64,000 nt of DNA from the NCBI GenBank assembly GCA_029882215.1, contig JAOULC010000014.1:1-64000 (forward strand), in the 5' to 3' direction. A model generated the notes under the pieces. That model was not told the origin of the DNA, did not search any database, and saw only the letters and a list, made by a program, of their open reading frames with translations. The stretch's first letter is position 1. Each line of letters begins with the position of its first letter. This DNA comes from Gammaproteobacteria bacterium (GTDB lineage: Bacteria; Pseudomonadota; Gammaproteobacteria; SZUA-229). The translations under genes and the position numbers were made by a program. Shown piece by piece: positions 33,205 through 51,221 of the stretch.

Positions 33205-34236
33205 CTAAACCAGACTCCAGTCAATTTTATCCAGACGCTTTGCGGCAATATAAAATATGGCCATGCCTGCACTCACTGTTTCTTCCATATCCGGATTACT
33301 GATGATGCTTGTATCTTTTATCGCCAGTACAGTGGCTTTATGCTGTTTCTTGAAAGCGATAAACAGGTCTTCAAAAAGCCATACTTTGTCAAGATTGTAT
33401 GGCACATCTATTCTGAACAATGTCGCACCGTTCAGGTTTGAGATCAGGTGCTGAAACACATTACTGGATTCCGGGTCCTGTAATTCCTGCGCCATTAAGT
33501 AGACATTAACCGGCAGGATAACCTGATTAAGATAACTTTCTTTTGCCGGCAAGTTATATATTTTATTAACATGGTCTTCATCAAGCAGGTAACAGACTAA
33601 ATGTGCTGTCTGGTTAATTTCACGGAATGCGTAGGCAGTAAAGAAAGTCTGGTTATCATCAGAACCATAGATGATTATTTTTGCCGCATGTTCGGCAGCA
33701 GACCGGTTCATTACATCTTTTGATGCCAGTTCACCACGTATATATTCAACAGTAGTACCATATAAAGGATTGCTTTCTTGCTCACTTGAGCAGAGCACAA
33801 TACATTCCGCCCTGTCATTTGATAAAATTTCCTCAACAATTTTTTCAGTGCTCCCTTTACGGTAGCCCATTATGATGGTGTGTCCTTGAAGTTTCATTAC
33901 AGCCAAGCCTTTTGAACGTTTATTAACAATTTTTAGTACCAGTTCTGTTATTTTAGCGATAACCAAAGTAAGTGCACCGATCCCCAGCAACATAATACAG
34001 ACAGCCGCAAAGCGACCGGACATTGTTGCCGGAGCATAGTCGCCATAGCCTACGGTAGTTGCTGTGACGAAAAACCACCAGCTATAGTTATTGACTATTT
34101 CGGTTTCAGCTGAGAACACCATCAGCGCGTAGCCGGCAAAATAAATCCCCAGCATCATGTACAGCACAACCGCCCATGCACGGGAGTACAGTGCGTATAA
34201 CGATAGATTAATAAGCCGGCGCAAATGAAATATCAT
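33205..34236 (-). CDS. Two-helix potassium channel with RCK-like cytoplasmic domain
   Basis: The 343-residue protein has two membrane helices (about 22-41 and 76-100) around a pore loop with the K+ selectivity filter TVGYGD at residues 61-66. A Rossmann-like RCK/TrkA-N region follows (about 115-240) starting GHTIIMGYRKGS, where the usual GxGxxG is altered. The plan is that of MthK-type gated channels. Its ATG abuts the stop of the aminopropyltransferase gene (TAAATG), so the two are translationally coupled, linking K+ flux to polyamine-like chemistry. It is the last gene of the operon. Confidence 0.85.
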   Translation of the reverse strand: MIFHLRRLINLSLYALYSRAWAVVLYMMLGIYFAGYALMVFSAETEIVNNYSWWFFVTATTVGYGDYAPATMSGRFAAVCIMLLGIGALTLVIAKITELVLKIVNKRSKGLAVMKLQGHTIIMGYRKGSTEKIVEEILSNDRAECIVLCSSEQESNPLYGTTVEYIRGELASKDVMNRSAAEHAAKIIIYGSDDNQTFFTAYAFREINQTAHLVCYLLDEDHVNKIYNLPAKESYLNQVILPVNVYLMAQELQDPESSNVFQHLISNLNGATLFRIDVPYNLDKVWLFEDLFIAFKKQHKATVLAIKDTSIISNPDMEETVSAGMAIFYIAAKRLDKIDWSLV

Positions 34237-35913
34237 TTAATCAAGCTGCCAGCTGTAGTCAGTGTATTGTGTTAATAAACAAGGTTGCATGACTGTATTA
34301 ATGCAGTGACTCGCTGAATCCAGCTCACCCTTACCGAACGCAAAAGAGGCCATCATTAACTCGGGAGTGATGAAATCAGTTTCAACTGAAAAGCGGCTGA
34401 GTGATGCCAGTTCTGCTTTGATGTTTGCTGCAGTATCAGCAGTAGTCCATGCAAGAAAAAATCCCCAGTCGCCGAATGACGGAATATTTTGACGATATGG
34501 CAGCACCGAATAACCGGCAGCCATGAGAGTATTACCGATGGTTAAAAAGGCCTCTTTGGCATGATAAGGTGATGTTGACTGTACAGCAATAAAAGCATTG
34601 ACTGATAAATGACGTTTGAGTTTACGATAAAACTGCTTGCTGTAAAGTTTACTTAATTCAACCGAAGACGGATCCGGAAAATCAATAATAACAGCATCCC
34701 ACTGCTGACGGTGAAGCTGATTAATAAACTGGTCGGCATCAAGAGTGTAGACGTTAACGGATGCGACCCACTCCGCTTTCAGCTGGCCTTTCTCATCGAC
34801 TTCGTTAGTACTTAAATACACACCCTTGACGTTTACTGCTTCGATGCCAGCCGGCTGCTGAACAATAATACGAGCATCATGAAAAGCATCTTTATTAAGC
34901 TTTCTCATATATTTGTTATGCGTTGCCAGCTTAACCATTTCCGGATCGAGATCCACCAGCGTAATACTATCCACTTTTTTATACTTCAGCACTTCTCTTA
35001 GTGCCAGGCCGTCACCACCGCCAAGTATCAGAACATTTTTAGCATCTGAAGCCAGCGACATCGCCGGATGAACAAGAAAATCGTGATAACGTTCTTCATC
35101 CAGTGAAGAAAATTGTGTGTTACCGTTAATATATAAACGCACATCACCACTGCTTTTGTTTTCTGTTATGACCAGATGCTGATATTTAGAGGTTTCTTTA
35201 TGTACGATTGGGTCATCATAAAACCGTTGCTCTAATAAATTACTGATATCACGATTTTGCATATACCCAATGGTCAATATACAGGCAGTCAGCGTCACAA
35301 CAACAATGGGTATGAAACGCTGCTTAATGACTTTGGTGTGAATGAAATACAATACGGTTATTAGTGCAACGGCAAAGTTAAAGCCTGCCACAATAAAGCT
35401 GATTTCAGTCAGTGGGTAATGTTTTAGTAAAAATTTTACCCAGATAATGGCACCGATAAATGCACCGATATAATCCATGGCGTAAACAATCGCAAGATTA
35501 GCTTTAAGTTGTATTTTATTTTGTTCGATTATTCTCATCACCAGCGGTATTTCGAAGCCGATTAGAAAACCAACCAGTAATACAAAAAAGTAATGAACCA
35601 GTTGAAAGCTGTTATCTAGATAGGCATAAGCACCGTAGATAGCTAACGGTGCAAAACCGCCAATAATGGCCATGACGACTTCAAGCGCCATGAATTTATA
35701 AATCAGGTTGTCGTCCGACATCCTGCTTTGAACAAGGCCGGACACACCCATCATTAACATCATGGCAGCAATCACAAGAGAGAACTGCTCTATTGAATTA
35801 CCGAGGATATAGGTGGTTATGGTCGCCAGAACATATTCATTAACCAGTCCGCTCGCACCCGTTGAAAACATACAAAAGGCCAGTAATACCGGTAAAAAGC
35901 GTGGCGTATTCAT
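34237..35913 (-). CDS. Membrane-fused spermidine-synthase-like aminopropyltransferase
   Basis: The 558-residue protein has six to seven membrane helices (about 1-215) followed by a spermidine-synthase-like domain. The dcSAM-binding motif is ILGGGDGLALR (about 296-306), the acidic residue LVDLDPE is at about 319-325, and the proton-acceptor region is IIDFPDPSS (about 409-417). An insertion of about 35 residues (353-386) splits the catalytic fold before the second acidic motif. Such membrane fusions are not canonical SpeE and their product is not established; they may act on a lipid or periplasmic amine. It lies 34 bases after DUF350. Confidence 0.82.
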   Translation of the reverse strand: MNTPRFLPVLLAFCMFSTGASGLVNEYVLATITTYILGNSIEQFSLVIAAMMLMMGVSGLVQSRMSDDNLIYKFMALEVVMAIIGGFAPLAIYGAYAYLDNSFQLVHYFFVLLVGFLIGFEIPLVMRIIEQNKIQLKANLAIVYAMDYIGAFIGAIIWVKFLLKHYPLTEISFIVAGFNFAVALITVLYFIHTKVIKQRFIPIVVVTLTACILTIGYMQNRDISNLLEQRFYDDPIVHKETSKYQHLVITENKSSGDVRLYINGNTQFSSLDEERYHDFLVHPAMSLASDAKNVLILGGGDGLALREVLKYKKVDSITLVDLDPEMVKLATHNKYMRKLNKDAFHDARIIVQQPAGIEAVNVKGVYLSTNEVDEKGQLKAEWVASVNVYTLDADQFINQLHRQQWDAVIIDFPDPSSVELSKLYSKQFYRKLKRHLSVNAFIAVQSTSPYHAKEAFLTIGNTLMAAGYSVLPYRQNIPSFGDWGFFLAWTTADTAANIKAELASLSRFSVETDFITPELMMASFAFGKGELDSASHCINTVMQPCLLTQYTDYSWQLD

Positions 35914-35947
35914 TTACTGTAATTTAATTACTTAATCACACAAAGCC

Positions 35948-36799
35948 TTAAAGAATTGCCATCCCGAGGATAAGGGCCATACCAATTTTCGCCAGCGTCA
36001 GCTGCACGGCAGCGACCCGCTGATCTTTAACAATGATATCACTGACTTTGGTTGAGGTAATAATAACAAGATCGATTAAAATCTCGAAAACATACAACAT
36101 AATCATACCGGCTAACGCTGCAACAATGAACTCAACCGCCGCATCAGCCGGTGTCAATGTTATGCCATTACCGACAATAGCACTTTGCAGAATTAATCCA
36201 TAGGCAATTATCTTTCCTGACAAATAAATACCTGCAGACAAATTACTTTGCTGCACACAGGCAACCGGATTGATTTTCTTAGCCAGTACTTTTTCATACA
36301 AAAGTACTAGTAAAATCATTGTCAGCTGACCGGCAATAAAATAAACAACAGATGAAACAATACCGCCATCATCACCTTTAATACTGGCGTAAGCGAGTAA
36401 ACCGGTCATGACAGAGGTACCAAATTCAACCATGCCGATTGCAACATTGCCGTTTTTTAGTTCAACAGTATTGTTAACTTTCGGCAGCAAGGCTTTATCG
36501 GTAACAAACAAAGAGACCAGCATGAACGCCATAGCAACAAAGCCATATATGACGGTATTAGTAAGATCCTGCAGAATATCCGGACTGCTGCTTCCGGACA
36601 TGACGCCGATCATTGCAATGGCAAGACCCAGTTGTGCACCGGAACGTCGCAGGCCAACAGCCATATTACCGTCAGCAATCTGATCATCCGCAGAGTAATG
36701 TTTTGATGATTTAATATTTAAAATATACTTCATGACTGTTGCCAGTGCGAGATACACCAGAGCATACATAACGTAGTACATGTAGTTCTCAATATTCAT
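35948..36799 (-). CDS. DUF350 (YjfL-like) membrane protein
   Basis: The 283-residue protein has about eight membrane helices. A motif N-x-A-x-G-x-x-x-(S/F)-G recurs near residues 45, 116 and 187 (GNMAVGLRRSG, GNVAIGMVEFG, SNLSAGIYLSG), with a worn fourth copy near 257 (RVAAVQLTLAK). This is the DUF350 unit, here in fourfold form. E. coli YjfL belongs to the same family and lies in an operon with PspA-like and glutathionylspermidine-synthase-like genes. Function is unknown; transport or membrane stress is suspected. It sits between a lipoprotein and the aminopropyltransferase gene. Confidence 0.85.
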   Translation of the reverse strand: MNIENYMYYVMYALVYLALATVMKYILNIKSSKHYSADDQIADGNMAVGLRRSGAQLGLAIAMIGVMSGSSSPDILQDLTNTVIYGFVAMAFMLVSLFVTDKALLPKVNNTVELKNGNVAIGMVEFGTSVMTGLLAYASIKGDDGGIVSSVVYFIAGQLTMILLVLLYEKVLAKKINPVACVQQSNLSAGIYLSGKIIAYGLILQSAIVGNGITLTPADAAVEFIVAALAGMIMLYVFEILIDLVIITSTKVSDIIVKDQRVAAVQLTLAKIGMALILGMAIL

Positions 36800-36832
36800 A
36801 AATATTCCAACCTTATAATTTGGTAATAATTA

Positions 36833-36852
36833 CAACTGTTCGCTAACAGTTG
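36833..36852. repeat. Hairpin between lipoprotein and DUF350 genes
   Basis: CAACTGTT and AACAGTTG form a perfect eight-pair stem with a CGCT loop, 11 bases after the lipoprotein stop. It has no strong U-run, so it may be a weak attenuator or an mRNA processing or stability element inside the operon. Confidence 0.55.
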
Positions 36853-36863
36853 AAAGTTATTTG

Positions 36864-38525
36864 TTATTTTCCGCCACCTGCTGGGCCGCGACTTCTTGAT
36901 GATTCACCGGCACCCCGTATTGAAGACTGTGCACGGGAAGATCGTTGTGACTTACCCGATCGTGCTGCCTGAATATCGGCCGGATTACGGCGTGCAAAAT
37001 CACTGTCTCTGTAGCGACCGTTGTCGTATGTACTGGAGCCCCAGGTTCCGTACTCATTAGCACGGCCATAATAAGGACTGCCACGGCGATGACTACGATA
37101 GCTATTATAATCATCATAGTAATAACGCGGCCGCCCCGTTAGCGCATTGAAGAAACTGTACATGCCGTAATAATGCCAGAAAGACCGGCCATTCTCATTT
37201 CGCCACTCACCATACTGATTACTACCTGTGGCCAGACCATTCGTCATTAGCGGTTTTGCTATTGTTGCCATACCAACCGGCTGAGCATCTTTTAATGCAT
37301 CCTCTTCATAGTAACCGTAAGGTTTGGTCAGTATTGCCATACCAAGATTATCAAACTGAGACCAGAAATCATCTTCTTTAACTGCAATCCATTCTCCTTC
37401 AGTCATCTGTTCATTAACAACTTCAACATAACGGTGAAAGGTATTGGTATATATTTTTTCAATCCAGTACTCTGCATAATCATCACCGCGTGGCCAGTTC
37501 CATTTTTTATCGATGCGCAGTGCATCCCAAACCGCTTTCGGAACATTCAGTTTGAAATTCTGTCGTCCCCAGCTCGACGACAGATTTGCAATCGTGTCTG
37601 TTTGCAGGCTATCAAAATATTCAAAAAGTTTTTCATCAATCATTACAGCCGGGTAGTATCCGGTTGTACCGTCACCACAATATTCTCCTTCACACCAGCT
37701 TGCTCGGCCAATGACAACAAAGTATTCAATCCTTTGATCAGCAAGAATTTTAGTGTAACTTTTATACAGCTCATCGAATTTTTCGTTTATTTTATTTTGA
37801 TAGTCGGTTGTATCAGCTAACGTTTTGGATAAAGCGACAGCTTCATCACCGAAGCTTGCATAATCAATATCCGCAGATAGTTTACTAAACTGATAATTTA
37901 TCTGCTTTGATGAGGCACTGGCTTTTTCAAGCAAAGAATTTAAAACGTTAAGTTTTTCTGTAACATCATCTTTTTTATGAGCATAGTCAGAGCTGACATT
38001 ATTTGCTCTTTTTGTCAGTTTTTTTGCCAGCGCAATCAGCTGGTCAAATTCACGCTGTGCTTTTTCATGTATCACGGAAGCTGTGTCCCGTACATTGATC
38101 AAAAAAGCGATTCGTTGCTCCGGATAGAGCGCTGCCTGACGGGATTTTTCCAGTTCAATTTCAAACAGCCTGAGCTGTATACGTGCAGCGGTGTCTTCGT
38201 TTGGATCATCACGATCCATGATGGGTATTATTTTTGACTGATACAGCGTATCAGCTGCAGCAAGAAATTCTTTAGATTTAGCAAAGTTTTCTTCCCAGCC
38301 TTCTTTTTCAAGGTAAGGTTTGAAAAACAGCCATTCTTGATGTGAGCCAAGCTGATCAAACTCTGTTTTCTTAGCCACAATAAAATCGTTATGCCTTACT
38401 AACTGATCAGGGATATTTTCTATTGACTGAACCACACCGTCAGACAAACCACTGCAAGCAGTAAGAAAAAAACTGGAAATTAACACATAAAACAAACCTG
38501 ACAGGCTTCTATTAACGCGATTCAA
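36864..38525 (-). CDS. Large lipoprotein with disordered Ser/Arg/Gly-rich tail
   Basis: I choose TTG 38525 because AAAGGGGG precedes it by five bases and the resulting N-terminus is a clean lipoprotein signal (lipobox FLTAC, Cys at residue 24); the first in-frame ATG would lie inside the preceding gene. The mature protein of about 530 residues has a helical, coiled-coil-like middle (about 110-270), a globular part with WGRQNFKLNVPKAVW, and a C-terminal tail of about 85 residues rich in Tyr, Arg, Ser and Gly, ending in GPAGGGK. I cannot assign a known family. The tail recalls the low-complexity ends of YjfM/YgiB (DUF1190), which also neighbour DUF350 genes. It is likely a membrane-anchored envelope component. 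Confidence 0.72.
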   Translation of the reverse strand: MNRVNRSLSGLFYVLISSFFLTACSGLSDGVVQSIENIPDQLVRHNDFIVAKKTEFDQLGSHQEWLFFKPYLEKEGWEENFAKSKEFLAAADTLYQSKIIPIMDRDDPNEDTAARIQLRLFEIELEKSRQAALYPEQRIAFLINVRDTASVIHEKAQREFDQLIALAKKLTKRANNVSSDYAHKKDDVTEKLNVLNSLLEKASASSKQINYQFSKLSADIDYASFGDEAVALSKTLADTTDYQNKINEKFDELYKSYTKILADQRIEYFVVIGRASWCEGEYCGDGTTGYYPAVMIDEKLFEYFDSLQTDTIANLSSSWGRQNFKLNVPKAVWDALRIDKKWNWPRGDDYAEYWIEKIYTNTFHRYVEVVNEQMTEGEWIAVKEDDFWSQFDNLGMAILTKPYGYYEEDALKDAQPVGMATIAKPLMTNGLATGSNQYGEWRNENGRSFWHYYGMYSFFNALTGRPRYYYDDYNSYRSHRRGSPYYGRANEYGTWGSSTYDNGRYRDSDFARRNPADIQAARSGKSQRSSRAQSSIRGAGESSRSRGPAGGGK

Positions 38526-38586
38526 ACCATCCCCCTTTAAGAGCTTTTTATTAAAGCTAGCAGCACAAGCAAACGCCAGCAGCTTA

Positions 38587-39219
38587 TTAATCCGCACTGA
38601 CTTGCAATACATTAATAGATTTAGAATTTATTTCATGACTGATAAAGGCCTCGCGCTGAGGTCTTTCATCATCATCTTCATGCCAGGTTTCAATGGTCAG
38701 GAAAGTTTTCTCATCCTCAGACTCAAACTCATAGGCTCGCATCGGCACACCATCTTTAGATCCGTTAGCTTTTATAAAGCGCCCTGCCCATGTATCTTCT
38801 TCGCTGTAATAATAGGTAATACCGTTATATACAACCGCTCCTTCCTCTTCATCGGCAATATATTCAAGGTCATTTCGGGTTAGTGACTTCCCCTCAAACT
38901 TAATCTCACGCATTTTAACCAGTGAATCCGTCTGGCTAACTTCAAGCTCATCATCAAATTCCCATTCCACATAAATCGTCTCACCTGTTTCAAGCGAAAA
39001 CAATTCCAGCTCGGTGATCCAGTAGTCTTTTTTACGTGGTTTGAAGTTATCCCACTTAACATCAAGATAAAGAAAAATATTATTCACTTTCCATGTCTGA
39101 TCATTAAGCTCAAGATAGCCGCCCTTTTTAAGGGATTTGATATTATGTATGGACTGTTCAGAAGCTGGCAACGGGTTTAATCCTCTGATAGCAGCCAGTC
39201 GATGTGTTACATCAGTCAT
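38587..39219 (-). CDS. DUF4178 protein
   Basis: The 210-residue soluble protein is a DUF4178 domain: LKKGGYLELNDQTWKVNNIF (about 30-49), then WITELELFSLETGETIYVEWEF and a later EEDTWAGRFI segment, ending near a C-terminal beta region. It has no signal peptide. DUF4178 genes often keep company with DUF350 and polyamine-synthase-like genes, as here. It lies two bases after the TelA-like gene and 61 bases before the lipoprotein start. Biochemical role unknown. Confidence 0.83.
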   Translation of the reverse strand: MTDVTHRLAAIRGLNPLPASEQSIHNIKSLKKGGYLELNDQTWKVNNIFLYLDVKWDNFKPRKKDYWITELELFSLETGETIYVEWEFDDELEVSQTDSLVKMREIKFEGKSLTRNDLEYIADEEEGAVVYNGITYYYSEEDTWAGRFIKANGSKDGVPMRAYEFESEDEKTFLTIETWHEDDDERPQREAFISHEINSKSINVLQVSAD

Positions 39220-39221
39220 GC

Positions 39222-40376
39222 TTATTCACCTTTACCGATAACTTCGCCTTCAATGACTTTTTCACCGCTTTCTAATTTTGCCTGTTTCTCATAATCATCA
39301 TTATCTTTTGCATCACGCAGTCCCTGAGCAACAGGGCTAAGCTCTGCCGTCATCTCAGCGAGTTTTGCGCTGGCTTCACGGGCTTTTATCGTGCTGTTTG
39401 CCATGGTTTCATTAGCTGTATTAACGGCCTGCATCAGCTGATCGAAACCTTCTTCCATCTTTTCAAGCGCGATAACCGGGTTGTTATACAGATCACCGAT
39501 TTCAGATGCGGCTTTATTCACAGCTGCTGCATTTTGCGCCATCATATCGCCAAGTCCTTCCTGAAAACTTTGAACGGCCTGTTTGACTGTATCCTGTTTG
39601 GCAAGTGCCGCCTGAATGCGCAGTGCATTCGTCATCACCATCGGGCCAACTGTCAGTGCACTGTCAATTTGCTCACTTAGCAGTTCATTGGTTGCAACCG
39701 TCTGATCAATACTGATAAAAAACTGTACAGCGGCCTGCTCCATAGTTCGCAGATCACGAATACGTCGTGCCGCTTTATTTTTTACAGAAGCCAGCTTTTG
39801 CAGCTCCTGTGCATCAGTGGCATCCGTTTCTGATTCTAATTTTTCAACTTCTGTGATAAAAATTTCACCAATATATATTTCTGACTGAATTTCTTTTTGT
39901 GCCGCTTCAATTTCAGTGTATTGATTTTCAAGTTCAATACTCGTTTCCAGTAAGTCATCTTTACCTGCACGCAGACCGGATAAAATACCATTGACATGTT
40001 TTTGCATCGGCTCATATTTGTGGATAAAACGGGAAACGGCTTTTCGCTTTATTCCTTTTGGCATCCATGAGAACCACCATGCATTATTCAGTGAATGCGG
40101 GTTCAGATCATCCATTGCGCCGCGCAGTTCCAGTAGTTTTTCACCCGTCGGAGATTTTCCATCCAGACCTTTTAGCAGTGAATTGACGCTGTTTGACATC
40201 AGGTCATTTGCCGCAGCCATTTTCTTTTGCGAGCCGGCACCTATCACATCAATCGCACGCATTAATGCCGGGCCTGTTTTTTCCTTTACGGTATTAACCA
40301 GAGCCTGAGACTTTTCTTTCATTCCACCTATTGCTGATTCGTCTGCCCACTTAGGTGTTTTTGCTTGATCACTCAT
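39222..40376 (-). CDS. TelA/KlaA-like toxic anion resistance family protein
   Basis: The 384-residue protein is almost wholly helical with long coiled-coil segments (about 130-200 and 260-350). The stretches LNPHSLNNAWWFSWMP, LENQYTEIEAAQKEIQ and PMVMTNALRIQAALAKQDTV match the TelA (KlaA, PF05816-type) pattern. Members were linked with tellurite and toxic-anion resistance and with cell-envelope stress, but the mechanism is unclear. It is preceded by an XpaC-like membrane protein gene (12 bases), a partner commonly found beside TelA. It is cytoplasmic and probably binds the membrane through its partner. Confidence 0.82.
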   Translation of the reverse strand: MSDQAKTPKWADESAIGGMKEKSQALVNTVKEKTGPALMRAIDVIGAGSQKKMAAANDLMSNSVNSLLKGLDGKSPTGEKLLELRGAMDDLNPHSLNNAWWFSWMPKGIKRKAVSRFIHKYEPMQKHVNGILSGLRAGKDDLLETSIELENQYTEIEAAQKEIQSEIYIGEIFITEVEKLESETDATDAQELQKLASVKNKAARRIRDLRTMEQAAVQFFISIDQTVATNELLSEQIDSALTVGPMVMTNALRIQAALAKQDTVKQAVQSFQEGLGDMMAQNAAAVNKAASEIGDLYNNPVIALEKMEEGFDQLMQAVNTANETMANSTIKAREASAKLAEMTAELSPVAQGLRDAKDNDDYEKQAKLESGEKVIEGEVIGKGE

Positions 40377-40388
40377 AATTACCTCTGA

Positions 40389-40979
40389 TTATATTTTGAA
40401 GCGTTGTTTCAAGAATTTTGCTTTTGAATTAAATTCGCTGGTTTGACGTGCTGCCAGCATACTTTTGACCTCGGCCAGTTCGGATTTCATGCCAGATAAG
40501 CCCTCTTCTACGGCTATTATCGTGGCTTCATCATTTCTGGCCTCTTCAGCCAGCGCTATATAGGGCTTAATGGATTTTTCCGGTAAGTATTCACTCGCCA
40601 TTCTGTTAATGACCCATGCAAGCTCTCCATCGGGGCCTGCCAGATTAACCTTAGGAAGCAGATCCAGTAACTGATCGATAATCTCTTCAAATGCATTTCG
40701 AACCTCAGCTGGCATAATGCACTTGCGTAGATGAATATTAATCATCAACAGTGACTCTGTTCCAAGCTCTGCCGCTGTTTTAGGTACAGCAGCCGCTGAC
40801 TGATCTTTATCAGATGTCGCATGCTTTGATGATAAGTAGCCTGCAAGCAAATAAAAAAGCACAGCAATAATGACAGCAATGATCAGGCCGGGCAGAAAAC
40901 CCAGGGACAGGGAAAGGACTAATGCCATTACAATAGCTATCAATACGGCTATCAGCAGGTTTTTATCGTTAGTTTTCAT
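40389..40979 (-). CDS. XpaC-like membrane protein, partner of TelA-like protein
   Basis: The 196-residue protein starts with two close membrane helices (about 8-27 and 29-50), then a helical cytoplasmic domain (about 65-196). The helical part (ESLLMINIHLRKCIMPAEVR, then FEEIIDQLLDLLP) resembles the 5-bromo-4-chloroindolyl phosphate hydrolysis / XpaC family that typically sits next to TelA genes. The family assignment rests mostly on layout and context, so it is moderate. It is the first gene of the operon, with about 145 bases of upstream sequence separating it from DUF2339. Confidence 0.6.
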   Translation of the reverse strand: MKTNDKNLLIAVLIAIVMALVLSLSLGFLPGLIIAVIIAVLFYLLAGYLSSKHATSDKDQSAAAVPKTAAELGTESLLMINIHLRKCIMPAEVRNAFEEIIDQLLDLLPKVNLAGPDGELAWVINRMASEYLPEKSIKPYIALAEEARNDEATIIAVEEGLSGMKSELAEVKSMLAARQTSEFNSKAKFLKQRFKI

Positions 40980-41124: not shown

Positions 41125-44100
41125 CTAACACATTGAAATAACACGGGTATTTTTAACTTTCTGGAATAAGTATGCCGCCAGCATCAGAATAGTTCCCATA
41201 CACATTAATGCAATGACCTTGTGGATATGACTAAAGTCATTCATATCATGTAACAGGACTTTTGCTGCCGTTAATGCATATAACGCTATAGACAGCCGCA
41301 GCACCCCCTTGTAGCCATCAATTAAGGTCAGGAACAATACGACCACTGCATGAACTAACATGGCGATTGAGGTACCAACCGACCATGGATCGAAAACAAG
41401 GTTGAGCATACCGCTATAGCCAATAAAAATCAGGCCGTGAAATAGCCACAGCTGGGTATTTCTTGGCATGGATTTTTTTTGCAGATAACTCAGCACCGCA
41501 TGGCGCTGATGCGTGATATACCACAACCCCGCAAGGGCGATAAAATCAGCCGCAAATGACAGGTATGAGTCTTCTACTTTTATAAATACCAGCACCGGTA
41601 TAGCAATAAGGCCCGACCACACCAGAAGATAAGCCAGGCTCATGGTGCTGCGCATGAGCACGCGAACTCTGCGCTGCTGTATCATATAGATGAAGAAGAA
41701 TACGCTTATCAGTAATGACAGCGCAATCTGCCCGCTTAAAGCATAGCTAAATGCTGCCAGCGCAAAACCATAGAAATACGGACTGCTTAGTGCGATTTTC
41801 GTATACCTGGTTAAATTTCCACCTGCTCTGCTGATTGTCTTTTCGCTGTAATGAAAAAGCGTGAGTACGGTGACACCCGCTATCAGGGCTGCTAAACCGG
41901 GTAACTGCTGTGCGCCGGTAACAGCATTTAATGCCATTAAGACCGTGCTTAAAACCGCAACAAAAAACAATATGTTTAACTGTATTAAAAGCGCTTCAAT
42001 CTTTAGTTTTTTATACATCAACCAGCTGACAGCAAAAGATAGCCAGATAAACACAGGGACATATTCTGTGTACAAACGGAATATTCGCGGCAGGAATAAC
42101 AGCGGTATGAGCAAATAAACACCGATACGAACTTTTACAGCAAGATGATAAGCTGGCTGTTCTGAAGCGGAATATTCATATACCCACTGTAATGCCCAGG
42201 CACACAGTAACACTTCAGCCCATGCAATCTGGGTCGCTAAAGATTGCTCAGTAAAATGCAGGTTACCCACAGCCTGATAACTAAACCACGTCATGACAAC
42301 AAACAACAAGAAGTGTGCCCATGCTAATTTTTCGGTTAGCGGCAAATCTTCTTTTAAACTGCGGTGCAATAAGAACAATAACGGAATTGCTGCAGCTGTA
42401 AACATCCACTCTTTAAATAAGATGGCAATTGTATATAAGAAAAAAGATGTTAAATACAAGGAAAGTGTTTCGCTTAGAATATATTGATGTGGCAGACGTG
42501 ATTCGTTTTCACTTAACGACTCTGTTTTATTAACAACCCAGCTGCTAATTGATAATAAACTTCCGACAACAATAAAATCCAGCCAGAGAAAGCTGAACAT
42601 TAAGGTCTCTTGATTAGCAATATGCCGAATACCAATCTGTAGCAAACTCAGAACCAACAATACAATCGGCACATAAAAAACCAGCTGATGTAACATGGCT
42701 GCCAGTTTTTCACCGCGCCCTTGCAGACCAGAGCGTTGATAATAAAAATGCAAGGCCCACGAAAAAAACAGCGTCTCTGCCATTAGGATCCATGTAGTCA
42801 GTGATTGTTGTGATATAAAAGTGGTATCAGTGCTCACCATACCCGCCAGAAAATTAACAACAAAACTTACAAATAAATAAAAACCGATAAGCTGAGCGAA
42901 ACGTAAGCGGAATTTTGCTGCTCGATAGAAACACCAGAGCATTGGCAGTACCAGCAGAACCGACATCAGTGCAGGCAAAAATACAGCCAGTATAAATCCT
43001 GATGCAGCTGCTCCCCATAATGTATAAATTTCATTCTGTACAAACGCCGCTTTAAGCTCGATCGGCTCTGCACTGTCTTTAAAGCGTTCTATTAACCGGT
43101 AAGCGAGAAAACTCAAAAAACCAAAAGTAAGTAGCTTAGTCCAGTACCACGACACTGTGTTATCTGCAACGGCATAACCTTCAGTCATTATGTGCCACAA
43201 AAGCCCTAGCATCGCCAGCAGATAGATAGCGTAACCTTCCGCTCTGATTAATTTATGCTGATACTGAAAACCAATATAAGCCAGGATTAATCCTTCCATG
43301 GCCCATATAACACTGCTGACATCGACGGGTGCCAGTACAAAAACAGATGTAGCGACAAGCAGACCAGCCATAAGAAAGTAGACCGGCGCTAATGCCGTTT
43401 TTAAAAGCTTAAATTTTAATACAATGACAGCCAGTATCACTGCATGAATGAGTAAAATACTCGCAACAGTCATATCACCCGTTGACACTTGCAGCATGGC
43501 ATATATGAAGTAAAAGACATTTGAAACCAGTAAGGTCACATCATAGCGGCTGAGCTGTGTTTTTATTTTTAGCCCCTGGAAAGACCAGTAGTAGACATAC
43601 ATATAAAAAAAACCGCTTAGCAGCGTTGCTATCACAAACGAACTAATGGCTTTACTGATACCGATGTATTCAATGACCGACAAACTCAGCACAAACATGA
43701 TGTGCGATAAAGCAGGCCATTTTATTTTATGCGACAAATACAGATTGGCGCATGAAAGAACAAATAAATACAAAAGAAAAACCAGCCCTATCGCTTCCAT
43801 ATCGCCGATAATAAACGGCGTAAAAACACCGCCGACAAGCGTGACAAAAGCCACGACTCTGGTTTCATAAATGAGTGCAAGAACAAAAGAACTCAGTGTG
43901 ACTGCCATTAACAATAAAAAACCACTGGACTCAGATATCATGCCGTAATAAGGCCCTATAAAATAGGCCGTCAGGTAATTAAAAATAACGCCTAATGCTA
44001 TGATACTCGCTGCATATTCGCGAAAATCTGTCTGTTTACGGGCAAGTAAAGCGCCGGCAGCTATTATTCCTGCGCCAACAACAAAACCCGTTAGCGCCTT

Positions 44101-44736
44101 TAAAGTATCGCTAAAGACTGTATAAAATGAGTATTGCAGTAAATAACCAAAACCAACTGTCAGCGTCAGCAAACCTGCAACAGTCATTAAGAAAACAGGC
44201 GCTTTGCCCTGATCTTTATAATGAAGATAGAGTTTAATTAACTTATGAAACAGTGCCTGAAAAGGTGCGGTGAACAGGGACAAACGGCTTAGTATAAAAT
44301 AAAAAATTGCTATAAAAAACTTACTAATAAATACATTTAACAAACCCGGCTCCGGGGTTTTGCTATTTACACTGTCATCACTGTCCGCCGCTGAAGCTGG
44401 CTCTGATTTAGTCTGCTCATTTTTCTCTGTAGATGTTGAAACTTTTATTGCCTCTGCTACAGGTGACTTATTCAGGTTTGTTGTTACAGATCTTTCATAG
44501 GCTACTGAATCTGATGACTGCTGAACAATTGCCGGGGATTGTTTTTCTGTATAAGACCCTGATATTGCAACATCAGCCGGAAGAGATGCCTTTTGTTCTG
44601 ACTGAACTGATTCACGTAAGACCCCGAGTTCTGATTTAAGCGCAAGAATTCTGCTGTTAAATTCATCTCTGGTATTTTCAAGAACATGCTCAAGCTCATC
44701 AATTCTCTGTTGCAGAGACTTTGTAGCATCAGTCAT
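41125..44736 (-). CDS. Giant DUF2339 multi-spanning membrane protein
   Basis: The 1203-residue protein begins with a coiled coil (about 1-48: QQRIDELEHVLENTRDEFNS), then a Ser/Glu-rich linker (to about 130), then around 30 hydrophobic helices to the C-terminus. This is the DUF2339 layout. The domain GLLTLTVGFGYLLQYSF and the FTPFIIGDMEAIGLV region are typical. Function is not known. It has its own promoter region downstream of the purA terminator and lies immediately upstream, same strand, of the XpaC/TelA operon. A functional link is possible but not shown. Confidence 0.88.
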   Translation of the reverse strand: MTDATKSLQQRIDELEHVLENTRDEFNSRILALKSELGVLRESVQSEQKASLPADVAISGSYTEKQSPAIVQQSSDSVAYERSVTTNLNKSPVAEAIKVSTSTEKNEQTKSEPASAADSDDSVNSKTPEPGLLNVFISKFFIAIFYFILSRLSLFTAPFQALFHKLIKLYLHYKDQGKAPVFLMTVAGLLTLTVGFGYLLQYSFYTVFSDTLKALTGFVVGAGIIAAGALLARKQTDFREYAASIIALGVIFNYLTAYFIGPYYGMISESSGFLLLMAVTLSSFVLALIYETRVVAFVTLVGGVFTPFIIGDMEAIGLVFLLYLFVLSCANLYLSHKIKWPALSHIMFVLSLSVIEYIGISKAISSFVIATLLSGFFYMYVYYWSFQGLKIKTQLSRYDVTLLVSNVFYFIYAMLQVSTGDMTVASILLIHAVILAVIVLKFKLLKTALAPVYFLMAGLLVATSVFVLAPVDVSSVIWAMEGLILAYIGFQYQHKLIRAEGYAIYLLAMLGLLWHIMTEGYAVADNTVSWYWTKLLTFGFLSFLAYRLIERFKDSAEPIELKAAFVQNEIYTLWGAAASGFILAVFLPALMSVLLVLPMLWCFYRAAKFRLRFAQLIGFYLFVSFVVNFLAGMVSTDTTFISQQSLTTWILMAETLFFSWALHFYYQRSGLQGRGEKLAAMLHQLVFYVPIVLLVLSLLQIGIRHIANQETLMFSFLWLDFIVVGSLLSISSWVVNKTESLSENESRLPHQYILSETLSLYLTSFFLYTIAILFKEWMFTAAAIPLLFLLHRSLKEDLPLTEKLAWAHFLLFVVMTWFSYQAVGNLHFTEQSLATQIAWAEVLLCAWALQWVYEYSASEQPAYHLAVKVRIGVYLLIPLLFLPRIFRLYTEYVPVFIWLSFAVSWLMYKKLKIEALLIQLNILFFVAVLSTVLMALNAVTGAQQLPGLAALIAGVTVLTLFHYSEKTISRAGGNLTRYTKIALSSPYFYGFALAAFSYALSGQIALSLLISVFFFIYMIQQRRVRVLMRSTMSLAYLLVWSGLIAIPVLVFIKVEDSYLSFAADFIALAGLWYITHQRHAVLSYLQKKSMPRNTQLWLFHGLIFIGYSGMLNLVFDPWSVGTSIAMLVHAVVVLFLTLIDGYKGVLRLSIALYALTAAKVLLHDMNDFSHIHKVIALMCMGTILMLAAYLFQKVKNTRVISMC

Positions 44737-44977: not shown

Positions 44978-47456
<2,479 letters not shown>

Positions 47457-47485
47457 TTAACTCTTGATTCTAAAATTGTGTTTCT

Positions 47486-47668
47486 TTAACGCAAAGCATA
47501 CAGGATGACAACGCCTAACAACATACTACCCAAACCAACCCAGCGCAGAATATTATCCGGGAGCTGGCTAATTTGTTGCATGGTCTCGCGCCACATAGCC
47601 GGATTGAGAAACGGCATTATACCCTCAATCACCAGCAGCAGTGCTATTGCATGTAAAATTTCATTCAT
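47486..47668 (-). CDS. DUF2065 (YjeT-like) small inner-membrane protein
   Basis: The 60-residue protein has two membrane helices (about 3-23 and 40-58). The motif LVIEGIMPFLNPAMWRETM followed by LRWVGLGSMLLGVVILY is the DUF2065 pattern found between hflC and purA in many relatives. Function unknown. It begins after the hflC terminator and leads the hisZ-purA group. Confidence 0.85.
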   Translation of the reverse strand: MNEILHAIALLLVIEGIMPFLNPAMWRETMQQISQLPDNILRWVGLGSMLLGVVILYALR

Positions 47669-47751
47669 AAAGGTGGGCTTTCTTTGCTAATTATTGGCAA
47701 TCGCCACTGCTAGCCTTGTCTGGCCCCGTGACAGATGAACATTCTGCACAT

Positions 47752-47782
47752 AAAAAAGCCGGAAGATAATAAGCTTCCGGCT
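47752..47782 (-). terminator. Intrinsic terminator of the hflKC transcript
   Basis: AGCCGGAAG and CTTCCGGCT (47757-47765 with 47774-47782) pair across an eight-base loop. On the minus strand the stem is followed by six Ts, 20 bases after the hflC stop. Confidence 0.93.
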
Positions 47783-47801
47783 GTTGCTAGTTTGATAGTC
47801 T

Positions 47802-48671
47802 TTATTTATTCACCTTACCGTCTGAGTTTTTCAGATAGCGGAAGAACTCAGAGTCAGGTTGTATCAACATAACATCCGATTTTTCTCTGAAGGTTTCTTT
47901 ATACGCTTCGAGACTACGGTAAAAACGATAGAACTCACGGTCTTTAGAGAAACTGGATGCATAGATATTGGCTGCTTTCGCATCACCATCACCACGCAGC
48001 TTTTCTGCATCACGATAAGCCTCTGCCAGAATAACCTTGCTCTGTTTATCAGCATCAGCTGTTACACGTTCTGCAGCTTCTCTGCCTTCTGAGCGAAATT
48101 CACGGGCATCACGTTCACGCTCTGTGCGCATGCGCTGATAGACCGATTCGCTGATTTTCTCAGGGTAATCGATACGCTTGATCCGTACATCGACAATCTC
48201 AACACCTAAGGACTCCGTCTTATCTCCCGCTAACTGAGTCATGATACCCATGATTTCAGCACGATCACCGGTGATCACTTCCTGAATAGTTCGTTTACCA
48301 AATTCATCACGAAGACCATTATTGACGATCTGATAAAGCAGCAAGCCTGCTCGTCTTTCATCACCACTGGTCGCCAGGAAGTATTTTTCAACATCCTGAA
48401 TACGCCATTTGATAAATGAATCAACAATCAGATATTTTTTCTCTGCCGTTAAAAAACGCTCCGGACGCTGATCCATGGTTAAAATACGTGAATCAAACTT
48501 TCTCACGTTATTCACAAAAGGCACTTTCCAGTGCAGCCCTGGCTTGTAGTCTGAACGTTCAATCGAGCCAAACTTTAACAGTATTGCTTTTTCTCGCTCA
48601 TCAACAAAAAAGGCCGATAAGGAGATCGCCGCAAGGACAGCAATGATAATAACAGGTATAAGCTTATTCAT
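47802..48671 (-). CDS. hflC: FtsH protease modulator HflC
   Basis: The 289-residue SPFH-domain protein has an N-terminal membrane anchor (about 3-22) and a periplasmic SPFH/PHB domain (about 20-200), including ERSDYKPGLHWKVPFVNNV, then a helical region rich in Glu/Arg. With HflK it forms a cage around FtsH that limits its access to membrane substrates. The gene directly overlaps hflK at the junction (start and stop share base 48671), so expression is coupled. Confidence 0.96.
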   Translation of the reverse strand: MNKLIPVIIIAVLAAISLSAFFVDEREKAILLKFGSIERSDYKPGLHWKVPFVNNVRKFDSRILTMDQRPERFLTAEKKYLIVDSFIKWRIQDVEKYFLATSGDERRAGLLLYQIVNNGLRDEFGKRTIQEVITGDRAEIMGIMTQLAGDKTESLGVEIVDVRIKRIDYPEKISESVYQRMRTERERDAREFRSEGREAAERVTADADKQSKVILAEAYRDAEKLRGDGDAKAANIYASSFSKDREFYRFYRSLEAYKETFREKSDVMLIQPDSEFFRYLKNSDGKVNK

Positions 48672-49843
48672 TATCTTGTCTCCCTTGAACGTGACGGTAT
48701 TCTGTTTCGTAAATCATCTAAGCCTGTGCCTGAGTCTCTTGCATCATCTCCTGCACTTAATGAGTCCAGTACATTAGTAGATTGCTTAGAGGTCATGCCT
48801 GAGCCCTGTAAAATTTTATCCAGAGGCAAGAACATCATATTATTACCTTTTACATCAACCATGACTTTTGTTGAATTACTCAGCACATGCTCAACCATAT
48901 CGATATATAAACGGTCACGGGTTACACCCGGAGCCTGCTTATATTCCTTTAATAAGGAGGTAAAACGACCGGCATTACCTTCTGCTCGGGCAATAACTTC
49001 CAGCTGATATGATTCTGACTCCGCTTTTAAACGAGCCGCAGCACCACGCGCTTTAGGTACCACTTCATTGCGGTATGCTTCTGCTTCATTCAGAAAGCGA
49101 ACTTTATCTTCAAGCGCTTTATTCACATCATCAAAAGCCGCTTTAACGGCTTCCGGTGGTTTTGCCTGACGAATGTTAACTTCAGTAATGGTTAGACCCG
49201 TTTTATATTGATCCACAATTTCCTGGGTTAATTTTTGTACGTCCGCGGCGATAGTGGCTCGCCCTTCGGTAATAACAAAATCCATATTTCTGCGACCAAT
49301 GCTTTCACGCAAGGCACTTTCTGTAGAATTTTTAAGGGTGACTTCAGGGTCGACCGTATTAAAAATATAATCTGTCGGGTTATCGACACGATACTGAATC
49401 GTACCTTCAATATCGACAATATTTGTATCCTGTGTCAGCATGGTTTCTTCAACACCAATAGAATAAACCTTTGCAACATTTACCTTGACGACATTCTGAA
49501 TAGGACGAGGAAGATGCCAGTGTAGACCACTCTGAACAGTCTCTTTATAAGCGCCAAACTGCATGACGATGCCGCGCTCAGCCTGCTCGACTTTATAGAT
49601 ACCAGAAGCAGCCCATAAAGTGATAACTATCGCCGCAATAACGCCTATGCCCATACCGCCACCAGATGATGAGGATGAACCACTGCCTTTATTATTACCG
49701 CCAAAAATACCGCTTAGTTTTTTCTGGAAGTTACGAAACGCTTCATCAAGGTCTGGTGGCCCCTGATTATTTCCGCGATTACCCCCGTTATTACCCCAGG
49801 GATCTTTCTTGTCGTTATTATTACCAGGCTCATTCCAAGCCAT
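48671..49843 (-). CDS. hflK: FtsH protease modulator HflK
   Basis: The ATG at 49843 is used, with GGAG eight bases upstream; the TTG two codons earlier is less likely. The 390-residue protein has a Gly/Asn-rich cytoplasmic N-terminus (about 1-65), a membrane helix (about 68-85) and an SPFH domain (QAERGIVMQFGAYKETVQSG onward), then a helical C-terminal part. It pairs with HflC in a large complex controlling FtsH. It follows hflX by 64 bases. Confidence 0.96.
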   Translation of the reverse strand: MAWNEPGNNNDKKDPWGNNGGNRGNNQGPPDLDEAFRNFQKKLSGIFGGNNKGSGSSSSSGGGMGIGVIAAIVITLWAASGIYKVEQAERGIVMQFGAYKETVQSGLHWHLPRPIQNVVKVNVAKVYSIGVEETMLTQDTNIVDIEGTIQYRVDNPTDYIFNTVDPEVTLKNSTESALRESIGRRNMDFVITEGRATIAADVQKLTQEIVDQYKTGLTITEVNIRQAKPPEAVKAAFDDVNKALEDKVRFLNEAEAYRNEVVPKARGAAARLKAESESYQLEVIARAEGNAGRFTSLLKEYKQAPGVTRDRLYIDMVEHVLSNSTKVMVDVKGNNMMFLPLDKILQGSGMTSKQSTNVLDSLSAGDDARDSGTGLDDLRNRIPSRSRETR

Positions 49844-49907
49844 ATGCAAACTCCAATTGTTTCAATTTATTAATGTGACACAGTAAGTCTGTCATGAACC
49901 ACGCATT

Positions 49908-51221
49908 TTATGGGCGTTGCACGACAGTCGCAAGGCTTTTATCGGTAAAAAGAAGATCGAGATCGAGACTTTCCCGGCTCACCAACTGATTTAAATCCCG
50001 TCTGGAAATTGATAAATTTATCAGGCTATTGCCCAGCTCATCATTTCGCTCTGATTTAATCGCCCCCAGCTTAAATAATAAAGCACGTAAGCGGCTCTGC
50101 GCCGGTGTAAGGCAGATTTCACCCTGTATAAGATCCTGCCTGAATCGCTCCAGCAATACCTCTTTCAACAGATCCAGTCCTCTGTTCTTTTCTGCTGACA
50201 GCCAGCTGCGTTTTACCTCACCCAGCTCGTCACGATCCACCCACGGATCAAGATCAAGCAAATCGATCTTGTTCATGACCTGTATCTGCGGTACTTCCTC
50301 AGCACCGATATCCGCTAACACCTGATTTACCTGTTCAATATTATGCAGCCTGTTGTCATCGGCTGCATCAATCACATGTAACAGTAAATCAGCCTCTTTG
50401 GTTTCCAGTAAGGTTGAGCGAAACGCATCCACTAAATCATGTGGCAAATGCCGTATGAAACCGACCGTGTCGGCCAGAATCACACTACTGGCATCATCCA
50501 GTTTGAGCTTTCGGAAGGTGGGATCGAGTGTTGCAAACAGCTGATCCTGCACATACACACCTGACTGAGTCAGTGCATTAAACAGCGTCGACTTACCCGC
50601 ATTGGTATAACCTACCAGTGCAATCGTCGGTGTTTCGGCTTTTTTGCGTGACTGCCGGCCCTGTTGACGCTGGCTGCGAACTTTTTCCAGGCGGCGATTA
50701 ATTTGTTTGATACGCTGAGCCAGTAATCGCCGGTCAGTTTCCAGCTGGGTCTCACCCGGCCCACGCAAACCAATACCACCTTTTTGCCGCTCAAGATGAG
50801 TCCAGCCACGTATCAGCCGGGTAGACAGGTGTTTTAACTGTGCCAGTTCAACTTGTAACTTACCTTCAAATGAACGCGCTCGCTGAGCAAAAATATCAAG
50901 AATCAGCCCTGTTCTATCCAGTACTCGGCATTTAAAAGTGGCTTCGAGGTTACGTTCTTGCGACGGACTGAGTGCATGATTAAATAACACCAGCTCAATA
51001 CCATTGGCTTCGATAAATGCTTTAATCTCCTCGGCCTTACCGGATCCAACGAAGAGTTTGGCATTTGGCTTTTGACAAGACGAGGTGAATTCAGCAATAG
51101 ACTCTGCGCCAGCAGATGCAGCCAGTTCACGGAACTCACCCAAATGTTCTCGCCGGGATTCATCATGAATATCGACGTGAATCAGGATTGCTCGTTCACC
51201 GCTACCGGGACGATCAAACAA
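49908..51221 (-). CDS. hflX: Ribosome-associated GTPase HflX
   Basis: The 437-residue protein has an N-terminal HflX domain (about 1-180) with the linker RGPGETQLETDRR, and a G domain from about 198: ALVGYTNAGKSTLFNALT (P-loop), ATLDPTFRKL (switch), DTVGFI and NKIDLL. HflX rescues stalled ribosomes after stress. The start is TTG 51221 with GGAG five bases upstream; no ATG fits. It is separated from hfq by a hairpin. Confidence 0.95.
   Translation of the reverse strand: MFDRPGSGERAILIHVDIHDESRREHLGEFRELAASAGAESIAEFTSSCQKPNAKLFVGSGKAEEIKAFIEANGIELVLFNHALSPSQERNLEATFKCRVLDRTGLILDIFAQRARSFEGKLQVELAQLKHLSTRLIRGWTHLERQKGGIGLRGPGETQLETDRRLLAQRIKQINRRLEKVRSQRQQGRQSRKKAETPTIALVGYTNAGKSTLFNALTQSGVYVQDQLFATLDPTFRKLKLDDASSVILADTVGFIRHLPHDLVDAFRSTLLETKEADLLLHVIDAADDNRLHNIEQVNQVLADIGAEEVPQIQVMNKIDLLDLDPWVDRDELGEVKRSWLSAEKNRGLDLLKEVLLERFRQDLIQGEICLTPAQSRLRALLFKLGAIKSERNDELGNSLINLSISRRDLNQLVSRESLDLDLLFTDKSLATVVQRP

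Follow-up and report, generated by a model that had tools for sequence, protein, structure and literature searches.

A gammaproteobacterial TelA operon as a probable variant of the PspA/polyamine membrane-maintenance operon

We analysed a 64,000-nucleotide stretch of a gammaproteobacterial genome (GTDB SZUA-229; assembly GCA_029882215.1, contig JAOULC010000014.1, positions 1 to 64,000), hereafter the window, and focused on a minus-strand operon at 33205-40979 that encodes a TelA family protein together with a membrane-bound aminopropyltransferase. An earlier reading made from the sequence alone (the sequence-only reading) had described seven genes with short gaps at this locus, and all seven open reading frames (ORFs) were confirmed and found to be tightly packed (Table 1). 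The intergenic gaps along the operon are 12, 2, -26, 64, 34, and 0 nt. With a lipoprotein start at the TTG at 38525, which is preceded by an AGGGGG sequence, the gap of -26 between the DUF4178 and lipoprotein genes would instead be about +61. At the last junction, the transferase stop codon abuts the ATG of the K+ channel gene (TAAATG), in agreement with the shared junction described earlier.

Table 1. Genes of the operon in the window, listed in the sense of transcription (XpaC-like gene first, K+ channel gene last)
Feature	Position	Strand	Characteristics
XpaC-like protein, 196 aa	40389..40979	-	N-terminal transmembrane hairpin (residues ~3-54) and C-terminal part of ~140 aa
TelA family protein (PF05816), 384 aa	39222..40376	-	Pfam 142.5 bits; no transmembrane segment, all-helical prediction
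DUF4178 protein, 210 aa, cytosolic	38587..39219	-	Pfam PF13785 30.7 bits
Lipoprotein	36864..38525 (probable TTG start; ATG 38612 possible)	-	Lipobox LTAC-S, helical-bundle domain, beta domain
Tandem DUF350 membrane protein, YjfL-like, 283 aa	35948..36799	-	Two DUF350 domains
Seven-transmembrane (7TM)-aminopropyltransferase fusion, 558 aa	34237..35913	-	PRK03612; Pfam Spermine_synth 110.6 bits
Optional seventh gene, two-transmembrane K+ channel, 343 aa	33205..34236	-	TVGYGD filter and RCK/TrkA_N domain, MthK-like

A contig search with the window TelA returned 13 loci, and a second search used the aminopropyltransferase as query across 398 genomes of the phylum; questions on whole genomes were answered through family searches. 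The results showed that 12 of the 13 TelA loci carried the six genes from the XpaC-like gene to the aminopropyltransferase gene in the same order and orientation, while the thirteenth (L051) was cut by the contig end within DUF4178. The aminopropyltransferase search recovered a genome of another class (G282, locus L146) in which the six genes keep this order. Its TelA was 18% identical to the window TelA and matched PF05816 at 55.4 bits, above the cut-off, its XpaC-like protein was recognisable, and its DUF4178 protein was 36% identical to the window homologue; two additional short ORFs lay between its DUF4178 and lipoprotein genes. Including the window, we obtained 14 complete six-gene loci with differing flanking genes, and the hosts of the operon included Pleionea mediterranea DSM 25350 (L055), Kangiella-like, and K189A-clade genomes. 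The sequence-only reading had named conserved co-occurrence as the point to check, and six of its seven genes co-occur in order in 14 genomes. These findings indicate that the gene set is more than a chance association.

A closely similar operon is the CesT/Tir-PspA operon with a 7TM-spermidine synthase, which Ravi et al. (2024; PMC11237479) described by comparative genomics as a 'second major group', with Shewanella AAN56744-AAN56747 as an example; the terms TelA and toxic anion are absent from that paper. We recovered 18 loci combining DUF2170/CesT-PspA-DUF4178 with lipoprotein-DUF350-aminopropyltransferase, although for two of these no lipoprotein gene or no DUF350 gene was observed, and the identities of CesT (DUF2170) and PspA were verified in one locus, L061. 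Profile comparison (hhalign) between TelA-type and PspA-type families gave 100% for the aminopropyltransferase, 99.6% for DUF350, and 98.9%, over 49 columns, for a C-terminal motif (SFWxxYGMY) common to both kinds of lipoprotein. TelA was placed in the slot of PspA because XpaC-TelA-DUF4178 parallels CesT-PspA-DUF4178, each accompanied by lipoprotein-DUF350-aminopropyltransferase. With moderate confidence, we interpret the operon as a TelA-based variant of the PspA/polyamine membrane-maintenance operon. From gene position, we infer that TelA with its XpaC-like anchor may be functionally equivalent to PspA. The earlier proposal of a candidate envelope stress system is partly supported, namely by context: 18 other loci join this block to PspA, and E. 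coli yjfIJKLMC, cited earlier as a distant parallel, starts with DUF2170-PspA. The earlier view that the complete set had no biochemical description stands for the TelA version and for the biochemistry, but the PspA version is known by comparative genomics (PMC11237479).

The window operon has DUF4178, the lipoprotein C-terminal motif, tandem DUF350, and the 7TM-aminopropyltransferase in common with the second group of Ravi et al., and a channel is found in some loci; the likeness to the lipoprotein of that group (Ctha_1186 domain) was judged from the C-terminal motif against PspA-type lipoproteins. It differs in having XpaC-like-TelA instead of CesT (DUF2170)-PspA, in block order, and in its longer lipoprotein, and the ribbon-helix-helix gene of some operons of the group was found in none of the TelA-type loci. 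The parallel with E. coli yjfIJKLMC (third group of Ravi et al.), drawn by the sequence-only reading, also holds. Each operon opens with a two-gene head (yjfI-yjfJ in E. coli) and includes DUF350 (yjfL), a gene for a polyamine enzyme, and one of lipoprotein type. However, yjfIJKLMC starts with DUF2170-PspA rather than XpaC-like-TelA, its polyamine enzyme is an ATP-grasp ligase (yjfC) rather than an aminopropyltransferase, and it has DUF2491, DUF1190, and a single DUF350, whereas the window has DUF4178, its own lipoprotein type, and tandem DUF350. A family scan of the seven window proteins found no ATP-grasp spermidine ligase, DUF1190, or DUF2491. It has been documented that yjfIJKL is up-regulated through a promoter mutation in heat-evolved E. 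coli strains, with a predicted envelope role (PMC12492005). Two of the PspA-type operons (L103 and L104) have UPF0114 inserted and IspA (septation) adjacent.

We then considered the phylogeny of the aminopropyltransferase (67 rows, midpoint-rooted). All 14 TelA-type enzymes formed one clade (100/99), sister to the PspA-type clade under this rooting. None of the 15 TelA-operon carriers had a PspA-type aminopropyltransferase operon, and 14 of the 15 had no second 7TM-aminopropyltransferase; three carriers (L202-L204) had the CesT-PspA pair alone, without the aminopropyltransferase block. In L204 (330-5086), the genome of which also has the TelA operon, CesT-PspA is followed by a ribbon-helix-helix gene, a small membrane protein gene, a possible YqiJ-like gene, and a probable flotillin gene, an arrangement resembling the first group of Ravi et al. 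and the P. aeruginosa bac cluster. A second type of TelA-polyamine operon was found in L058 (4100-12614), with the order DUF4178-DUF4178-aminopropyltransferase-XpaC-TelA-SPFH/GYF-zinc ribbon. Its aminopropyltransferase takes a separate position in the tree, and its TelA falls in the SPFH-context group, so TelA and aminopropyltransferase were joined at least twice. A third aminopropyltransferase clade (L149, L151, L155, and similar loci) occurs with a zinc-ribbon DUF4178 and SPFH, without TelA or PspA, and is accompanied downstream by a protein of ~550 aa (L059 5996-7660).

TelA and PspA also occur in other known systems. The XpaC-TelA-SPFH-zinc-ribbon operon of gammaproteobacteria and the XpaC-TelA/YaaN pair of Firmicutes (Listeria lmo1966-lmo1967) resemble the window in having XpaC or an XpaC-like gene directly upstream of TelA. 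The former operons carry SPFH and zinc-ribbon genes, not the polyamine block (except in L058), and the TelA proteins of both systems are ~23-25% identical to the window TelA. Among the sampled gammaproteobacterial TelA loci, XpaC usually came before TelA and SPFH often after it. In B. subtilis, the SPFH protein YdjI recruits PspA in the pspA-ydjGHI operon (PMC8581546). That operon is a membrane-stress operon in which SPFH and membrane anchors recruit a helical coat protein, and SPFH partners TelA elsewhere; it differs from the window in having PspA, not TelA, and no polyamine enzyme. By analogy, SPFH proteins appear to be a partner common to TelA and PspA in separate contexts.

The label XpaC in the sequence-only reading was not established. 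The window protein had no PF10112 match at E<=1, matches were weak in four of 14 members of its family (best E 0.0028), and hhalign against true XpaC gave 8.7%. Because the matches are so weak, the name XpaC-like rests mainly on position and on the transmembrane hairpin. The family is nevertheless conserved in 15 loci, and its gene lies directly 5' of TelA, as does XpaC in most TelA loci of the class sample. The XpaC-like protein is presumed to be a membrane anchor for TelA. The PF05816 match of the window TelA (cut-off 30) spans profile positions 13-326 of 332, and the protein represents a divergent TelA subfamily. Controls in Bacillus, Lactococcus, and Methanosarcina also matched PF05816, indicating that the TelA family is widespread.

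The earlier description of a surface-anchored lipoprotein stood in part: the lipobox is present, but a surface location was not established. In L055-L057 and L146, the orthologues lack the lipobox cysteine and instead have a transmembrane segment at the N-terminus, so that the anchor type switches within the family (L055 10821-12467, L056 4869-6545, L057 10734-12407, L146 9844-11571). The C-terminus carries an SFWxxYGMY motif and a basic tail, RGPxGGGK. The fuller form of the tail, S-I/V-RGAG...RGPxGGGK (window ~36867-36920), is kept in all lipoprotein orthologues within a region predicted to be disordered, and a similar basic tail, RRGK, ends the lipoprotein of PspA-type L061. The structural model was good at residues ~25-410, with a predicted local distance difference test score (pLDDT) of 73 overall. 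Foldseek with this model returned nothing at E<=0.001, and its VIA-align matches (Z up to 12) were generic helix bundles and not interpretable. A perfect 8-bp inverted repeat, CAACTGTT-AGCG-AACAGTTG, lies in the gap between the lipoprotein and DUF350 genes (window 36833-36852) without a T run and could be an RNA hairpin between cistrons. An 86-aa ORF in another frame (window 36857-37117, minus strand) overlaps the lipoprotein C-terminus, has no family match, and is probably due to chance. The PF13785 cut-off is 25, which the window DUF4178 protein exceeds and that of PspA-type L061 just misses (24.6 bits). The two DUF350 domains scored 136.3 bits (cut-off 26), and a simple hydropathy scan resolved six of the eight transmembrane segments expected of a YjfL-type tandem.

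The operon enzyme scores as an aminopropyltransferase by domain and motifs, and its fusion to a membrane domain, as claimed earlier, holds (7TM plus Spermine_synth; PRK03612 578 bits, cut-off 472). Among 11 aminopropyltransferase members, G298-G302 (GGGDG of the S-adenosylmethionine (AdoMet) site) and D411/P413-D414-P415 (catalytic DxxDP) were invariant, and alignment to solved enzymes also supported these motifs of the spermidine-synthase fold. The nearest solved relatives were 7xif (polyamine aminopropyltransferase) and thermospermine synthase. AdoMet decarboxylase (SpeD) and a separate soluble SpeE are encoded elsewhere in the genome; therefore, the substrate, decarboxylated AdoMet, can be made, and the operon aminopropyltransferase is not the housekeeping enzyme. 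The kept motifs, the domain score, these relatives, and the decarboxylase would also fit an operon mainly for polyamine production or export, in which the transferase and DUF350 make and move a specialised polyamine while TelA, the XpaC-like protein, and DUF4178 are accessory regulators rather than a membrane coat. We consider this unlikely, because SpeE already exists separately, genes for a decarboxylase or a transporter are absent from the operon, and PspA, TelA, or SPFH proteins repeatedly accompany the block. The K+ channel (Ion_trans_2 plus TrkA_N, nearest solved chain MthK) was present in four of 14 complete TelA-type loci (window, L055, L056, and L057). Because it is optional, control of charge or osmotic balance by a polycation and a K+ channel, as suggested by the sequence-only reading, is not the core of the system. 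The channel could be an unrelated downstream gene outside the system, since it is missing from the other 10 loci, including the nearest relatives L045 and L046. We doubt this as well: besides the TAAATG junction in the window, its start is very close to or overlaps the preceding gene in L055-L057, it recurs in seven of 18 PspA-type operons, and Ravi et al. noted a K+ channel in a third, ATP-grasp-type operon (PMC11237479). A K+-channel-like BLAST match 3' of the aminopropyltransferase in L045 had no intact gene in the stretch read and was not counted.

The names TelA and XpaC-like would suggest an operon for resistance to toxic anions (tellurite), and YaaN/TelA has been linked to tellurite in the literature (PMC12791056). 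However, a Listeria telA mutant was reported to be hit harder by nisin (sensitivity up 4-fold) than by tellurite (2-fold) (PMC12791056), a result that also favours the membrane-maintenance reading. The other five genes have no tellurite link, and the closest operons have PspA instead, which leaves tellurite resistance a very small probability. PSP operons were first seen under phage stress, and the aminopropyltransferase had a weak PADLOC match to mad2 (E 5.5e-12), both of which would point to an anti-phage defence system. That match is limited to the methyltransferase-like fold, the other proteins scanned had no PADLOC match, and gene content and order are stable across genomes, unlike those of variable defence islands; defence against phages is thus highly improbable.

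Several results weigh against a TelA-based variant of the PspA/polyamine operon. The comparisons of TelA with PspA and of the XpaC-like protein with CesT each gave 0.3% (hhalign), that is, no detectable homology, and the DUF4178 profiles of the TelA and PspA types matched weakly (5.5%, E 0.007). A sigma-54 (PspF-type) promoter was found 5' of the first gene in none of 15 TelA-type loci. The AlphaFold model of TelA had a mean pLDDT of 56, and its PDB matches were to generic helical bundles, none with E below 0.02. Mutual exclusion of the TelA operon and PspA was rejected, as eight of the 14 other carriers have PspA elsewhere, and the window's family is generally without PspA (one of 54 has one). 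In a narrower sense exclusion does hold, as no carrier combines the TelA operon with a PspA-type aminopropyltransferase operon. PspA was not found in the window's own genome, but because the family nearly lacks it this absence is a lineage trait and is therefore not used as evidence of replacement. In the TelA model, the hairpin 107-183/189-259 alone was fairly confident, in part, and a search by sequence found no solved structures for TelA. A generic promoter scan found 29 sites against 33 expected, with no excess.

The gene immediately upstream of the operon (window 41125-44736, also minus strand) encodes a DUF2339 membrane protein of 1203 aa, and a DUF2339 relative lies just downstream of the operon in L050 (8662-10866); this link may not be due to chance. 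Further upstream, hflX-hflK-hflC-hisZ-purA were read from translations on the minus strand (window 44978-51221), and E. coli yjfIJKLMC likewise lies just beyond hflK-hflC-purA. This common proximity may be a coincidence, because the flanking genes differ in other carriers of the TelA operon.

If the operon is indeed a TelA-based variant of the PspA/polyamine operon, the XpaC-like protein would anchor TelA to the inner membrane on its cytoplasmic side. There, TelA, a long-helix protein, would, like PspA, form a scaffold where the membrane is damaged or over-charged, and DUF4178 could couple the TelA layer to the channel-like DUF350 protein while the lipoprotein serves as a reporter for the periplasm. 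The membrane-bound transferase, using decarboxylated AdoMet, may aminopropylate a polyamine or another membrane amine, which would shift local positive charge against anionic lipids, and the K+ channel, where present, would adjust K+ and potential. More tentatively, TelA with the XpaC-like protein might be a second bacterial membrane scaffold, non-homologous to PspA/ESCRT-III or unrecognisably diverged, that does the same work and is exchangeable with it in two or more types of operon (those with the aminopropyltransferase block and with the SPFH/zinc-ribbon block). If this is true, the nisin, tellurite, and antibiotic phenotypes of telA mutants would be membrane-repair defects. The presence of XpaC-TelA in the slot of PspA-CesT provides a concrete hypothesis for TelA, namely that it is a membrane scaffold or repair protein. 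The linkage of a membrane-bound polyamine enzyme to a membrane-maintenance protein would then not be peculiar to PspA, and this wider linkage lends weight to the view that envelope repair involves local polyamine modification.

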